Virus record (IMG/VR): IMGVR_UViG_3300046000_007648
Location: 1-43,549 of that record
Direction: 5' to 3' (one strand)
From: a virus
Length of the DNA stretch: 43,549 nt
Shown here in pieces: positions 2,674-22,557 of this stretch (positions within the stretch are counted from its first letter, which is position 1; each line of letters starts with the position of its first letter). The position numbers and the translations under genes are program-made. Below the pieces are notes generated by a model, which was not told where the DNA came from, ran no database searches, and worked only from the letters and a program-made list of their open reading frames with translations.

Positions 2674-3657
2674 TTATATAAACACTTTGAGTTTTATACC
2701 TTTTGACAGACGATTGAACACAAAATAATTAAAAAACTCCTCTTTTTTTACATAAAAAGCGTCTTTTCCGAGCTTGTTTACTACCACAATACCTTCGGTA
2801 TAATGAATCATGGGCAATAACTCGGCAGTAATCGTTGTACAAGATATCGCCTTGGTGAAATATGAAATCTGTTTCAGGGTTGGAATAGTTATATGTTCAA
2901 GTGTGTCCGTCACTCGACTTAAAGTCACTTTCCTCGGTTTATTGCTTTCCATTTCTCGTAGAACTTCCGGACCGTTTTCTATCTTAGCTATGATAACCTT
3001 ACCATCTATGTGCAGTTTTGCGTAATTTATTGGAGCATCAACCTCGACTTGATTTAGTCGTTTTCCTACAAGTTCTAGCCCAGAGAATACGGTTGTTCCC
3101 ATTTCTTCCTCGTTTAAATTATCTATAAAATCACAAACATAATCTTTTTCATCCTGACTTGCGGGTCTTCCCTCAAATTTGTGGTCGTCCGTTATAACAC
3201 TCTTTAGGTAATTTCTGGCATTTTCGTTTTTCTCTAAAATGTGAGTGAGAGCACGCAGCGCCTTTGTGAACATCAAATTTTTGTATCCGTGGATTGACGC
3301 GTTCTCTAATTTTATATTTGACCCATCATCCAGAGCCTTTACATCGACAGTTTTGTTTCCGGGTAAAATTAAATCTCCTATATTACTTCCCCCGGAAATG
3401 CAACCTCGGAGCAAAAATACAAACGGTATTTCACCGAAATGCAAATTCTTTTTCCTCGAAAGTGAATTTATATAATCAATAATCTCGGAATATTTTGCGT
3501 TGTTGTATTCCGCGACCGCCGCTTCCACCGATTCGCAACTATTATACAATTCAGCAAAGCTTGGATTTTTCTTCAATATTTCAATTAACCTCGGTATAAC
3601 TTCAATGTCAATTTTCTTAAAGTTGTTTCCGACCTCCGAGATTATGTCATTTACCAT
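2674..3657 (-). CDS. Possible PD-(D/E)XK nuclease-like protein
   Basis: The protein has about 327 residues from the ATG at 3657; a TTG at 3672 overlapping the upstream TGA would add five. The segment GGSNIGDLILPGNKTVDVKA (about 90-109) fits the D-x(n)-(D/E)-x-K signature of PD-(D/E)XK nucleases: GD on one strand, then VDVKA on the next. The rest is mixed helix and strand with no membrane segment. It lies directly after the family A polymerase-like gene and before gp32/uvsX, so a role in DNA processing is plausible. The short motif is the only support, and a non-catalytic structural protein remains possible. Confidence 0.5.
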   Translation of the reverse strand: MVNDIISEVGNNFKKIDIEVIPRLIEILKKNPSFAELYNSCESVEAAVAEYNNAKYSEIIDYINSLSRKKNLHFGEIPFVFLLRGCISGGSNIGDLILPGNKTVDVKALDDGSNIKLENASIHGYKNLMFTKALRALTHILEKNENARNYLKSVITDDHKFEGRPASQDEKDYVCDFIDNLNEEEMGTTVFSGLELVGKRLNQVEVDAPINYAKLHIDGKVIIAKIENGPEVLREMESNKPRKVTLSRVTDTLEHITIPTLKQISYFTKAISCTTITAELLPMIHYTEGIVVVNKLGKDAFYVKKEEFFNYFVFNRLSKGIKLKVFI

Positions 3658-18151: not shown

Positions 18152-18893
18152 TTAGCGTAAAAGTTCAAATCTTCCTTCTTTCATAACACTGTCTATCATG
18201 TGACACTTAGCTCCATTTCTGTGGTCAGTAATTCGGTTATCAGCATAGTTGTATGTGCGGACCTTATCTCCGCGACCAGCGCCGCTATAATTAGTAGAAT
18301 TACCCGACTTGGACGAAAACTGCTTTATTTTACCCGCCAAACACAGTCTGGCAGTTCTTCGATTGGCTTGCTGACTTCGTCCGTTAATGAAAACTTCCAA
18401 CCCAGTTGGGATGTGTTTCAGTCGCACTGCACTTGACGTTTTGTTCTGGTGTTGTCCACCGTTTCCATGTCCTCGTTGGAATGATTCTTCCAAATCAGAT
18501 TCCTTCATTTCATTGTTCTGTTGCAGTAACCTCGTTACGGTCACGGCAACGTAAGATGTATGTTTCCTACCACCTCGGTCGTTCTTTGGAATGCGTTGTA
18601 CACAATGCGTCCCAGTCTCGGAATCAAACAAAGATTCAGCTTTCATATCCGAACACACAAAACTGAATTTGCTGGGTCCGGTTTCTTCCAACTCAGCTTC
18701 CAGTCCATTTTTTTCCATGAACGCCAGATAAGCTATGAACAGTTGCTCGGTGAATAATTTTGAATCATCCCCGCCCTCGCCAGAAATTACTTCAACCAAC
18801 ACACCTCTCGCGTCAAAGTGACCCCCAAGAGCTAGCAGAGCCTCCCGATGGGTTGCCCGAGTTATTCGAGTAATATGTTGTTTGTGTCTTCAT
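18152..18893 (-). CDS. Class I peptide chain release factor, RF2-type, expressed by +1 frameshift
   Basis: The main reading frame (18802-18152) has the release factor core: ISGEGGDDSKLFTEQLF, ETGTHCVQRIPKNDRGGRKH, GGQ within GHGNGGQHQNKTSSAVRLKH, and a tail with YNYADNRITDHRNGAKCH. It lacks a good start codon. An ATG at 18893 opens 26 codons in another frame ending CTT TGA C, after GGGGG; a +1 slip there joins the frames and gives a product of about 246 residues. This is the layout of the prfB autoregulatory frameshift. Domain 1 is absent. The stop-recognition tripeptide is PKN instead of PxT (RF1) or SPF (RF2). If no frameshift occurs, GTG at 18802 or TTG at 18799 are fallback starts. Confidence 0.85.
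18813..18826 (-). promoter_or_regulatory. Programmed +1 ribosomal frameshift site (prfB-like)
   Basis: Read on the minus strand: GGGGG (18826-18822), TCA, CTT (18818-18816), TGA (18815-18813), C. The three-base gap between the purine tract and CTT and the sequence CTTTGAC match the site in bacterial prfB, where low RF2 activity lets the ribosome slip +1 at UGA. The slip occurs after codon 26 here, nearly the same place as in E. coli (codon 25). In bacteria, slippage needs the tract to pair with the anti-Shine-Dalgarno sequence, so it should also work here. Activity is inferred. Confidence 0.82.
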
Positions 18894-18901
18894 AGCGAAT
18901 A

Positions 18902-18931
18902 TAAGTATGCGGATAATTTTGTATATGTCAA
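18902..18931 (-). promoter_or_regulatory. Sigma-70-like promoter for the release factor gene
   Basis: A consensus TTGACA (18931-18926) is followed by an 18-base spacer and TACTTA (18907-18902). It begins just after the terminator of the tail tube gene. Transcription would start within a few bases of the ATG at 18893, leaving almost no leader. The -35 is perfect, the -10 only fair. Confidence 0.5.
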
Positions 18932-18932
18932 T

Positions 18933-18958
18933 AAAAAATCCCCTATTTTCATAGGGGA
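18933..18958 (-). terminator. Intrinsic terminator after tail tube gene
   Basis: TCCCCTAT and ATAGGGGA form a perfect 8-bp stem around a 4-base loop, followed on the minus strand by six U residues. It ends the tail tube transcript 26 bases after its stop codon and separates it from the release factor promoter. Confidence 0.85.
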
Positions 18959-18983
18959 CTTGAAACTTATTCTTCTTATTATA

Positions 18984-19478
18984 TCAATATTGAAGTATCG
19001 CGTAGTCGTAAGTGAGCGTCATGTTGATGGTCAGAGCTTCTTGTGCGCTCCAATCAAGTCCCGTGCCATTGAAATTGACTGTTGATGGGAATGCGCCCTT
19101 CAATTGCCAATTTTCGATTTTATCGCCGACCGGACCCAATACAACGATATTGACATCCTTTTTATAGAATGCCGCATAGCCGTTACGACCGGTCACGGAT
19201 TCGTGAGCAAGACGCACCCATTCCATACAGGCTTGAGCGCCGGACGGAACAATAGCGTCATACAGTGTCACTTCAACGTCGGACCATTCACTTTTTCCCT
19301 TGAGCTTGCGCTTCAAGTTGATGTGGTCTAGGGTAATTGAGTTGTTTACAATAGTTGGACGCGCCGCCGCTTTGATAAGATATGCGGGAATTCCGTCTAT
19401 CTCGATAATAAAGCGGTTTTGAACTTTTGGTTCATACGCTGTAAAAAATATAGAATTTGCATCTAGTAGTTCTGCCAT
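18984..19478 (-). CDS. gp19: Tail tube protein, gp19 type
   Basis: The 164-residue length matches T4 gp19 (163). Motifs of the family are present: an N-terminal segment with FFTAYEPKVQNRFIIEIDGI (about 12-31), the strand region DHINLKRKLKGKSEWSDVEV and, near the end, SAQEALTINMTLTYDYAILQ. Subunits stack as hexameric rings to form the inner tube through which DNA passes. Its own terminator follows. The sheath gene, adjacent in T4, is 6.3 kb upstream on the same strand, separated by an accessory island. Confidence 0.92.
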   Translation of the reverse strand: MAELLDANSIFFTAYEPKVQNRFIIEIDGIPAYLIKAAARPTIVNNSITLDHINLKRKLKGKSEWSDVEVTLYDAIVPSGAQACMEWVRLAHESVTGRNGYAAFYKKDVNIVVLGPVGDKIENWQLKGAFPSTVNFNGTGLDWSAQEALTINMTLTYDYAILQY

Positions 19479-19612
19479 GGTGTTATATAGGGTTAATTGT
19501 TTGGTTATTCATTTCTGCCTGCGTAATCGCATCGTATTATAAATAATAATTAAACAAAAAATATGTTGACATTATCAAAAAAACATATACTGTTTTATTG
19601 CTTACGAACCTT
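19479..19612. promoter_or_regulatory. Divergent region between tail tube and homing endonuclease genes
   Basis: Toward the plus strand there is TATAAATA at about 19540-19547 (T4 late promoter consensus) and TTGACA at 19566-19571 with TACTGT 16 bases on (TATACT also overlaps). Toward the minus strand CCTATATAAC lies just before the tube start. Which signals work cannot be decided from sequence. Confidence 0.4.
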
Positions 19613-21169
19613 ATGGCCAGACCAAAGAACCCAAATAATACATTGCACAAGATTTGCCCGACCTGCAAATCGGAATTTACGTGCGAAAAACGGAAAGAGA
19701 AAATGTATTGTTCTCGCGTCTGCGCATGTAACTCTCCGGAGGTAAAAGAGAAAAATAAACTCGGAGTTGCTAAAACTTTCGACGCTAGATATGGTGGACA
19801 TGCTATGAAAACCGACGCGGTCAAGGAGAATTACAAAGCCGCGATGATGGCAACACACGGCGTGGAATGGGCCGGTGGGATGCCAGACCACGTAGAAAAA
19901 GTTAAAAAAACCCTTGCCGCTCGTTATGGTGACGAAAATTACAATAACCCGACACAAATGAAATCCACCATGATAGAAAAATATGGGGTTGATAATTACA
20001 GAAAATCCAAAGAGTACGAAGAAAAATACAAAAAGACATGTGCTATAAAATATGGAGTTGCACATGCGTCAAAATCGAGTGAATTTAAAGATGCACATAA
20101 AATAACGATGTTCAAAAAGTTTGTGTCGTCCGAGCGGTTCAAACATTTTGTTCCGTTATTTAACATAGAAGATTATTTTGGAGTAAAGACTGTTTCCTCC
20201 ACAATGACATATTCATTTAAATGTAATAGATGCAATAGAGAAGAAGCACACAGTCTTAATAATGGAGCAACTATAAAATGTTCTAAGTGCGACAAAACTA
20301 TGTCGGACTTTCAGTCGAGTATATTTGAATTTATCAAGACACTGGTCCCGGATGACCCCGTGATACCCAACGATAGAACCACATTATTTCCCAGAGAAAT
20401 AGATATATATTTACCAAATCAAAAGATTGGTATAGAATGTAATGGACTTTACTGGCATACTGAAATATCCGGTGGAAAAAATAGAAATTACCATCTCAAC
20501 AAGACCAACGGGGCAGCATTCAAAGGAATACGCTTAATACATATATTTGAAAACGAATGGAATCATTCACAGGAAGTGGTCAAGTCCGTGCTCAGAAATA
20601 TATTGATAAAGGGTAATATAAAAATTCACGCACGAAAATGTGAAATACGAGATATATCATCTCAAGAAAAAAAGGAATTTCTGGCAAGAAATCACATCCA
20701 AGGAAACGACCATGCCACAATAAAACTTGGAATGTATTTCAATAAAGAGTTGATGTCGGTCATGACATTTGTAAAATCCAGATTCGATACGGCAGTTGAG
20801 TGGGAAATGAGCAGATTTTGTTCTAAGTTGGGTCACACCGTCATAGGTGGAAGCTCTCGCCTGTTTTCTCATTTTGTAAAAAAACACAACCCTAATTCGA
20901 TTGTTACATACGGAGACCGGCGATACTTCTCGGGTGAAGTGTATTTAAAGTTGGGATTCAATTTCGTTTCTACGACTCCCCCCGGATATTATTACACAGT
21001 GGATGGATATTCTACCCTGTCCGGGAGACAGGGGTGGCAGAAACACAAACTTGCCAACAAACTCCTTTCGTTTGACCCCGCCTTGTCGGAATGGGAAAAT
21101 ATGAAAATGAACGGGTTCGACCGGATTTGGGATTGTGGGCATTCGAAGTGGGTGTGGAAAAAGTGTTGA
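19613..21169 (+). CDS. Homing endonuclease, EDxHD/Vsr-like with zinc fingers
   Basis: The 518-residue protein starts at ATG 19613. A zinc ribbon comes first (CPTC at 15-18, with two more cysteines in YCSRVC). Then come repeats built on KYGV/RYGD (about 58-165) that probably bind DNA, and a second CxxC pair (CNRC 204-207, CSKC 223-226). The nuclease core follows: FPREIDIYLPNQKIGIECNG (259-278), LYWHTE and IHIFENEW, the Vsr/EDxHD arrangement with E262, D264, E275 and H282. Such free-standing nucleases cut related phage genomes lacking the gene and spread with their flanks. It marks the left edge of the island between tube and sheath genes. The long C-terminal half (GNDHATIKLGMYFNKELMSV) may be further DNA-binding parts. 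Confidence 0.82.
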   Translation: MARPKNPNNTLHKICPTCKSEFTCEKRKEKMYCSRVCACNSPEVKEKNKLGVAKTFDARYGGHAMKTDAVKENYKAAMMATHGVEWAGGMPDHVEKVKKTLAARYGDENYNNPTQMKSTMIEKYGVDNYRKSKEYEEKYKKTCAIKYGVAHASKSSEFKDAHKITMFKKFVSSERFKHFVPLFNIEDYFGVKTVSSTMTYSFKCNRCNREEAHSLNNGATIKCSKCDKTMSDFQSSIFEFIKTLVPDDPVIPNDRTTLFPREIDIYLPNQKIGIECNGLYWHTEISGGKNRNYHLNKTNGAAFKGIRLIHIFENEWNHSQEVVKSVLRNILIKGNIKIHARKCEIRDISSQEKKEFLARNHIQGNDHATIKLGMYFNKELMSVMTFVKSRFDTAVEWEMSRFCSKLGHTVIGGSSRLFSHFVKKHNPNSIVTYGDRRYFSGEVYLKLGFNFVSTTPPGYYYTVDGYSTLSGRQGWQKHKLANKLLSFDPALSEWENMKMNGFDRIWDCGHSKWVWKKC

Positions 21170-21199
21170 CGCGGACAAGAAACCTATTACAACCATACC

Positions 21200-21505
21200 A
21201 TGAGCAATCAAATCACCGAACAGCAATTATCAGACGCAATTAAACAAAACGTTTTATCTATTGCGTTCAAGTGTGTGTTCACCGTGCCGGATTTAGAGTT
21301 ACCGGAAAAGATTGATGCTGGTATAAAGTTGTTCATGGGCGAGTTTATCAAAGCCGTACCATTCAAAAACTTCACCTCGACGGTGGAAGTAGATAATGTG
21401 AAAATTGTAGTGAAAATCGTGGTCAACCACATCGACGAAAAACATAACCCAACGCGAGTTGAATCTGTGCTTCCGATGGAAATTATACCAGTTAATTCGC
21501 GATAA
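21200..21505 (+). CDS. Hypothetical small protein (101 aa)
   Basis: This is a small, soluble protein with no recognised family. It is a mixed alpha/beta sequence (NQITEQQLSDAIKQNVLSIA, then KIVVKIVVNHIDEKH near the end). It starts 31 bases after the homing endonuclease stop and is followed by the RNA ligase gene. A TTGACG at 21166-21171 lies upstream with a poor -10, so a separate promoter is possible but weak. It may be an early host-interaction protein, by position only. Confidence 0.6.
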   Translation: MSNQITEQQLSDAIKQNVLSIAFKCVFTVPDLELPEKIDAGIKLFMGEFIKAVPFKNFTSTVEVDNVKIVVKIVVNHIDEKHNPTRVESVLPMEIIPVNSR

Positions 21506-21508
21506 CTA

Positions 21509-21536
21509 TTGACACGAGATAAAAAGTCTGTATAGT
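21509..21536 (+). promoter_or_regulatory. Sigma-70-like promoter before RNA ligase
   Basis: TTGACA (21509-21514), a 16-base spacer, and TATAGT (21531-21536) with TG directly in front of it. It is the best promoter match in the window. The start point would fall only a few bases before the ATG at 21547, so the message would be nearly leaderless. Confidence 0.65.
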
Positions 21537-21546
21537 TGTGCCTAAT

Positions 21547-22557
21547 ATGAAACATATTCCATATCCCTCTATCGAACAGTTTAGAAACGCGATTCACAAG
21601 GTCGGTTGCAAAGCCAGACATGCCGGTATTGATGTTAATGGTGACCCCGTGTACGATCACACTAAAGTCTTACCAGTACTGACTTATGAAGGCACGGTTA
21701 AGTTGCATGGTACTAACGCAGCCATCTGTACAAATGTTTTATCCGGAGAAGTTTGGTTCCAAAGCCGGGAAAATGTCATTGCCCTTGAAAAAGATAATGC
21801 AGGGTTTGTTCGCCACTTTGAGGGAAAATTTGTCAGAAAGTTGTTTTCTTTAATCGAACCCGCGAGCGAAGACTATGCCGTATTTGGTGAGTGGTGCGGA
21901 GGAAACATTCAACCCAACGTTGGGATTGCAAAGCTATCCAAACGATTTGTTGTTTTTGGAGTGTTGGCTGACGATAAGTGGCTTGGAAAAGAAGCCATCA
22001 GTAAGGTAAAAGACGAAACCATTGGTGTTTACAACATTTACGATTATCCGTGTGAAACCATTGAAATCGACTTCAACAAGCCAGAAATTTCTCAGAACAA
22101 ACTTTCCGAATTGACCATTAAGGTTGAGGAGTCCTGCCCTGTGGCAAAAGCTATGGGAGTTGACGGTATCGGCGAAGGCATTGTATGGAAGTGTGTCTCC
22201 GAAGGCTGGGAATCGCCAGAATTTTACTTCAAAGTGAAAGGCGAACTCCACTCGAAATCGAAGGTTATTACTCTAAAGCCGATTGATTTGGAGAAACTTG
22301 ATAAAGCCACCACTTTGGCAGTCAAGGTTACTCCCGAGTGGCGGCTAGCGCAAATGTTAGACAAGGCGTGTGATCTAATGAACGGAGGAAAAATCGACCG
22401 AAGCAAAGTTGGGGACTTCATCAAACTTGTCACCGACGATGTAACCAAAGAGGAAACCCACACTATCAAGGAAGCCGGGGTTGACGCGAAAGATATAAGC
22501 GGACATATCGCAAAGATTGCTCGCAACTACTTCTTTGAGAGAGAAAAGGTCCAGTAA
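21547..22557 (+). CDS. RNA ligase, Rnl2 type
   Basis: The 336-residue protein has the nucleotidyltransferase motifs in order: motif I EGTVKLHGTNAA with the lysine that takes AMP (K52), a following FQSRENV, motif III YAVFGEWCGG, motif IV GEGIVWK and motif V FYFKVKGELHSKS. This is the T4 Rnl2 pattern (length 334). Rnl2-type enzymes use ATP to seal 5'-phosphate to 3'-OH RNA nicks, in phages usually to mend RNAs cut by host defences. A C-terminal helical domain (about 255-336) is present. GTG at 21538 is an alternative start but lies right at the promoter. Its neighbours are a HAD-like and a SLOG-domain protein. Confidence 0.88.
   Translation: MKHIPYPSIEQFRNAIHKVGCKARHAGIDVNGDPVYDHTKVLPVLTYEGTVKLHGTNAAICTNVLSGEVWFQSRENVIALEKDNAGFVRHFEGKFVRKLFSLIEPASEDYAVFGEWCGGNIQPNVGIAKLSKRFVVFGVLADDKWLGKEAISKVKDETIGVYNIYDYPCETIEIDFNKPEISQNKLSELTIKVEESCPVAKAMGVDGIGEGIVWKCVSEGWESPEFYFKVKGELHSKSKVITLKPIDLEKLDKATTLAVKVTPEWRLAQMLDKACDLMNGGKIDRSKVGDFIKLVTDDVTKEETHTIKEAGVDAKDISGHIAKIARNYFFEREKVQ

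Follow-up and report, generated by a model that had tools for sequence, protein, structure and literature searches.

A prfB-like candidate frameshift site in the short RF1-like release factor gene of a contractile-tailed phage, and predicted stop-codon recoding among its relatives

Results

The window, meaning the whole stretch of DNA analysed (IMG/VR virus record IMGVR_UViG_3300046000_007648; 43,549 bases), comes from a contractile-tailed phage whose products include a tail sheath, tail tube, baseplate hub, DNA polymerase, SSB, and RNA ligase. Its 42 greedy open reading frames end in TAA (35), TGA (7), or TAG (0), which corresponds to the standard code. The gene described here (Table 1) is a single minus-strand gene between a terminator-like hairpin, 3' of the tail-tube gene, and the next small gene; the upstream gene (18984-19478) encodes the tail tube protein. 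The promoter-like sequence 5' of the start matches no better than shuffled sequence from the region, and no Shine-Dalgarno (SD) sequence stands at the ATG. No Rfam elements were found in the window. A plus-strand island (19598-22557), with a homing-endonuclease-like open reading frame (start called at TTG) and the RNA ligase, adjoins structural genes encoded on the minus strand.

Table 1. Features of the release factor locus (window coordinates)
Feature	Position	Strand	Basis or remark
Leader open reading frame, 26 sense codons and UGA stop	18813..18893	-	Direct reading
GGGGG, internal SD-like stimulator 3 nt 5' of CTT	18822..18826	-	Direct reading
Slip site CTT TGA C, putative peptidyl-tRNA-Leu shift CUU to UUU (+1)	18812..18818	-	Sequence and conservation
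GTG taken as start by the open reading frame caller	18800..18802	-	Open reading frame listing; missing in L006 and L033
Short class I release factor, +1 frame, 220 amino acids and stop	18152..18814	-	Domain models, fold
PKN at the position of RF1 PxT/RF2 SPF (codon-reading loop)	18581..18589	-	Alignment
GGQ catalytic motif	18452..18460	-	Intact; in all family members
23-nt block CGGGCAACCCATCGGGAGGCTCT, identical in L006 including wobble bases	18837..18859	-	Leader comparison
Promoter-like TTGACA-16-CATACT directly 5' of the start codon	18904..18931	-	10/12 matches
Intrinsic-terminator-like hairpin and T run, ending the tail-tube gene	18936..18961	-	11-pair stem, 4-base loop, T tail

In a direct reading of the minus strand, an ATG (18893-18891) opens 26 sense codons (MKTQTTYYSNNSGNPSGGSASSWGSL), the last of which, CTT (18818-18816), is followed by TGA (18815-18813) and C (18812), with TCA separating it from the GGGGG (18826-18822); the start, leader length, slip site, and G tract reported in the first-pass annotation were all confirmed. 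The +1 frame runs from GAC (18814) through 220 codons to a TAA (18154-18152); if TGAC is read as a single step, the fused product has 246 residues. Upstream of the GAC, the release factor frame stays open for just 25 codons. No ATG occurs in this frame ahead of the domain, where it has just a GTG (18802) and a TTG (18799). The gene caller begins at the GTG and misses the leader, as had been foreseen. Compared with prfB-type elements, the site has CUU-UGA C in frame with an upstream start, an SD-like element (the GGGGG) 3 nt before the CUU, and a downstream frame that encodes a class I release factor and itself lacks a conserved start, in keeping with the earlier claim that the product requires a prfB-type +1 shift. 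In E. coli prfB, the SD-like element lies six nucleotides before the stop, which is codon 26. The window gene resembles bacterial prfB in its CUU UGA C, its internal SD 3 nt upstream, a stop near codon 26, and the need for a +1 shift; the spacing is the same, and the stop is codon 27 rather than 26.

The predicted protein matches the RF-1 domain in full (PF00472) and the PCRF domain in part (PF03462, positions 98-194 of 194), both above cut-off, and lacks domain 1. RF1 gave the best model score (162.3 bits), ahead of RF2 (120.7), PrfH (62.0), and ArfB (34.7). Since no model reached its curated cut-off (NCBIfam prfB, 370 bits; prfA, full length, 400/423 bits for scores of 162.3 and 151.3; PrfH and ArfB, 166.65 and 100 bits), the protein is, as judged by domain models, an RF1-like short factor outside curated prfA and prfB. 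Bacterial prfA is its nearest sequence family and differs in being full length (with domain 1) and free of frameshift regulation. The codon-reading tripeptide is PxT in RF1 and SPF in RF2. PKN stands at this loop in the window and L006, PHT in L033, and PPT in most family members; neither SPF nor SPY occurs in the family set, and RF1-type residues (VQR-P) flank the loop. We rejected RF2 membership, which the first-pass annotation had proposed, given the PKN, the missing domain 1, and the higher RF1 scores. AlphaFold modelled the fused 246-residue product at a mean pLDDT of 84 with a confident core and disordered leader residues 1 to 24 (mostly pLDDT <50), and the nearest PDB folds to the model are class I release factors, RF1 first.

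The same gene occurs in six contigs including the window, with identical sequence in the five other IMG/VR contigs. Two further relatives (L006, whose protein is 77% identical and which has another upstream gene, and L033, 64-65% identical) form a supported clade with the window in a 105-row quick tree whose deep branches are unsure. The L006 site reads TTGGGGG AGT CTT TGA G after 27 codons; the L033 site reads GGAG TCG CTT TGA C in a leader of unrelated sequence; and in both, the release factor frame contains no ATG, GTG, or TTG before the core. Window and L006 cores share only 40% of the codons for identical amino acids, which, with 77% protein identity, indicates a core under strong purifying selection. 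The 23-nt block of Table 1 is identical despite this low core codon identity, which suggests, from two sequences only, an extra leader element. The block also contains a second SD-like word, GGGAGG, upstream of the GGGGG; such a word is normally avoided in prfB, where it would compete for the anti-SD. Within this clade, TTGAC[A/G] stands about 30 nt 5' of the SD-less ATG (window, 18893-18931; L006, 2884-2931; L033, 2901-2938), and most other leader-class relatives have a good SD, unlike the window's own clade. As the ATG lacks an SD and has the TTGAC[A/G] at this distance, the message of the window clade may be leaderless or near-leaderless.

Related loci (L numbers) were collected from viral-contig scans and phage-record searches and were chosen by GGQ-region and domain patterns, not by slip site. 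Each scan was limited to its best 80 hits (80 of 369 candidate stretches in one case), and the fractions given here describe the resulting sample: 130 distinct release factors, of which 20 are full length and 110 short. Doubtful cases (L031, L138, L160, and L162) were set aside. Automatic reconstruction recovered a chain from ATG through slip site to release factor in 81 of the 110 short genes. CTT directly precedes the needed stop in 82 of 106 short genes (the next codon, AAA, in 10), against 9 of 782 stops in that phase within gene bodies (1.2%), so the CTT site is not due to chance. The conservation of the slip site in homologues, which the first-pass annotation had put forward as a check, is thus borne out, with CTTTGAG in L006 and CTTTGAC in L033. 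The in-frame ATG lacking a slip site, named there as the contrary pattern, turned up rarely, plain starts being found only in L020 and L221 (of about 106). An SD-like word is absent from 24 of 88 sites; where present, it ends exactly 3 nt before the CTT in 57 of 64. The mean anti-SD energy is -7.5 kcal/mol, compared with -1.6 to -3.4 at slid positions, and the base after the stop (+4) is C at 62 of the 88 sites.

Two classes of site were distinguished. Leader-class sites, such as the window's, lie upstream of the domain, and internal-class sites within the PCRF domain, usually 22 or 34 to 38 codons past the ATG. Joining the frames of internal-class genes adds about 20 to 47 bits to the domain score in nearly all cases, because the other frame encodes the first half of the domain. 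The family is present in uncultured-phage records of 485 to 735 kb (LR756511.1, LR756504.1, LR756502.1, LR756501.1, LR745206.1, and LR745208.1, the last with the internal form). RF1 models led by about 25 to 90 bits in every member tested, and each of 28 records examined contained exactly one RF-1-domain gene. A scan of genome contigs returned nearly all bacterial prfA. Bixzunavirus (Mycobacterium phages Tonenili and ChaylaJr), Omegavirus WXIN, and Pseudomonas phages VCM and Pyxpy01 were considered as cultured models and rejected; their RF-1 proteins (L360-L364) match the GGQ domain alone, without the PCRF (codon-reading) half.

The stop at the 88 sites is UGA in 59, UAG in 24, and UAA in 5. 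Seven genes carry tandem sites: L027 (AGGGGG TGT CTT TAG C, then AGGGGG TGC CTT TAG C), L023 (UAG and UAG), L021 and L060 (UGA and UGA), L053 (UAA and UAG), L010 (LR756511.1, 595 kb; UAA and UGA), and L018 (UAG and UGA). On the 105-row tree, recoding mode changed at least 12 times, and stop type changed 20 times among frameshift members. No association of stop type with loop motif was seen across the family set; the link between stop type and UAG usage in the phages themselves is weak (uncorrected P of about 0.02). In one pair, L056 and L057, the cores are 98% and the leaders 55% identical, upstream DNA is nearly identical (around 2910-3000), and the stop differs (UAA and UAG) while TGTCTTTA[A/G]C is kept. 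The two leaders give the appearance of exchange or of diversifying selection.

In place of a shift, about 23 other members carry one or two in-frame stops, in the contexts UGA before AGA, AAG, CTN, or ATN and UAG before CTG. A conserved in-frame stop within the domain, SI*LTG, occurs in L184, L190, L197, L012-L014, L122, L124, L126, and L158 (UAG in L184 and L190; UGA in most), and single in-frame UGA or UAG codons occur elsewhere in L209, L243, L244, L245, L253, L224, L061, L017, and L055. In 20-kb samples of the same records, TGA and TAG are normal stops, and almost no open reading frames have a TGA in mid-gene. A changed code (L011, L012, L122, L126, L156, L158, L190, and others) is therefore unlikely in the low-GC records and was rejected for the low-GC phages sampled; the test is weak in high-GC records (L209, L243, L244, and L253). 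ARAGORN called CUA-anticodon tRNAs (as tRNA-Pyl) in L339 (18021-18092) and L348 (17292-17365), the records of L197 and L245, whose release factor genes have in-frame UGA, and found no UGA-reading tRNA in the samples. Programmed readthrough is the reading that the sequences best suggest for these in-frame stops.

Discussion

We consider it highly probable that the window's short RF1-like factor is made only through a +1 shift at the leader UGA and that the family as a whole acts as a sensor of termination capacity. The parts of this mechanism that come from the sequence are a possible start at ATG 18893, CUU in the P site, GGGGG 3 nt upstream, and the +1 frame. As UGA C entered the A site with CUU in the P site, the GGGGG would pair with the anti-SD 3 nt upstream of the CUU. 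By analogy with prfB, slow termination at UGA would give the tRNA-Leu time to re-pair with UUU, and a lower capacity for UGA termination would raise output. The switch would turn on the phage's own factor when termination capacity is low.

What is sensed may depend on the stop. Because all tested members prefer RF1 models and none has SPF, direct negative feedback by the RF1-type factor is plausible at UAG and UAA sites. Since UGA should lie outside the range of an RF1-type factor, a UGA site would directly sense host RF2. At the window's UGA site, feedback would be indirect, with the phage factor taking over UAA and RF2 being freed, except if the PKN loop also accepts UGA or specificity is otherwise widened. 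Stop type does not track loop motif and weakly follows UAG usage, which counts against strict autoregulation, a model that does not predict this pattern.

Such autoregulation, which the first-pass annotation put forward, is the strongest rival, and we think it unlikely. The phage factor would itself read UGA, by way of the PKN loop or a relaxed specificity, and repress its own synthesis as RF2 does. UGA is the commonest site type in the family, and the replacement of PxT by PKN in the window and L006 changes the codon-reading tripeptide; against this stand the RF1-type VQR-P, the lead of RF1 models in every member tested, and the fact that PPT members, expected to read UAA and UAG, carry UGA sites equally often.

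Less probable again is a programmed shift with no sensing, which would keep a factor that is toxic in excess at a constant level, low or delayed. Excess release factor is harmful to bacteria (PMC12421855), tandem sites would multiply output down, and stop identity switches freely on the tree. However, the family keeps either stop-dependent recoding or in-frame stops, all of which are expected to be termination sensitive; that the sites sense capacity rather than hold a low constant level is argued by analogy with prfB.

Internal initiation or re-initiation at GTG 18802 or TTG 18799, with the leader as an attenuator, is very improbable. In the window, GAGAGG precedes these codons and translation from them would yield a product starting right at the domain, but no start codon stands there in L006, L033, or about 20 of 23 leader-type relatives, for which reason the GTG start was rejected, and the internal class would lose the first half of the domain. 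A pseudogene or a sequencing or assembly error would need no more than the broken frame and has a negligible probability, since several separately assembled contigs share an identical copy of the gene, the site recurs in L006, L033, and dozens of independent phages, and the core appears to be under strong purifying selection.

From the sequences and by analogy with prfB, we conclude that these genes represent a phage-wide, recoding-gated RF1 family that would sense termination capacity. In large phages, the factor appears readable only through a slip or readthrough in nearly every gene examined, and, with such an event needed at a stop, it should be made only when stops are processed poorly. 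We give about even chances to a more specific proposal, in which stop choice, doubling, and mode would be tuned like a logic gate, reporting the limiting host factor and installing the phage's own; the family would then include the first UAG-regulated RF1-type release factors and the first case of programmed readthrough in a bacterial-type release factor gene.

Of 8,164 bacterial prfB motifs, 98.6% use TGA, 1.4% TAA, and none TAG, and prfA is not so regulated (PMC12421855). The main review of the field calls an RF1/UAG counterpart unknown, states that in no known organism has readthrough taken the place of the shift, and names one amoeba giant virus release factor having both (PMC5009743). Compared with bacterial prfB, the window factor is RF1-like and without domain 1, and its phage relatives also have UAG or UAA stops, doubled sites, and sites inside the PCRF domain. 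Mimivirus R726 and Megavirus mg280, in which UGA readthrough is combined with CUU UAG C or CUU UAA C on experimental evidence (PMC3521657), are likewise virus-encoded class I release factors with stop-codon recoding; those proteins, however, are of eRF1 type, belong to amoeba viruses, and are unrelated to bacterial RF1, and phages are not mentioned in that paper. RF1/RF2 genes have been reported in huge phages with no mention of frameshifting (Al-Shayeb et al. 2020; PMC7162821), and the huge-phage papers name release factors but not recoding. We found no report of phage release factor frameshifting in the literature, preprints and most subscription papers being outside the search.

Programmed frameshifting of bacterial-type release factors had been known for RF2 alone, at UGA and rarely at UAA. 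The phage family offers many candidate natural examples of RF1/UAG control by shift and of control by readthrough, and it adds tandem sites and rapid stop-codon swapping. With stops so varied and so often swapped, the hypothesis that stop identity tracks the sensed factor becomes directly testable. The family would also imply that translation termination is contested during large-phage infection and that gene callers truncate or miss such genes, as with the unconserved GTG start in the window.

Arrays of tRNA genes enclose the release factor gene in L025, L029, L059, L076, and L078, together with a tmRNA in L029; this location and the single gene per record fit a translation-takeover module. 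A gene of this kind, with a CTT TAG C leader, was also found in a bin assigned to Candidatus Obscuribacterales (L258; JAKFUT010000206.1); its contig, of 50 kb, is possibly that of a phage or prophage.
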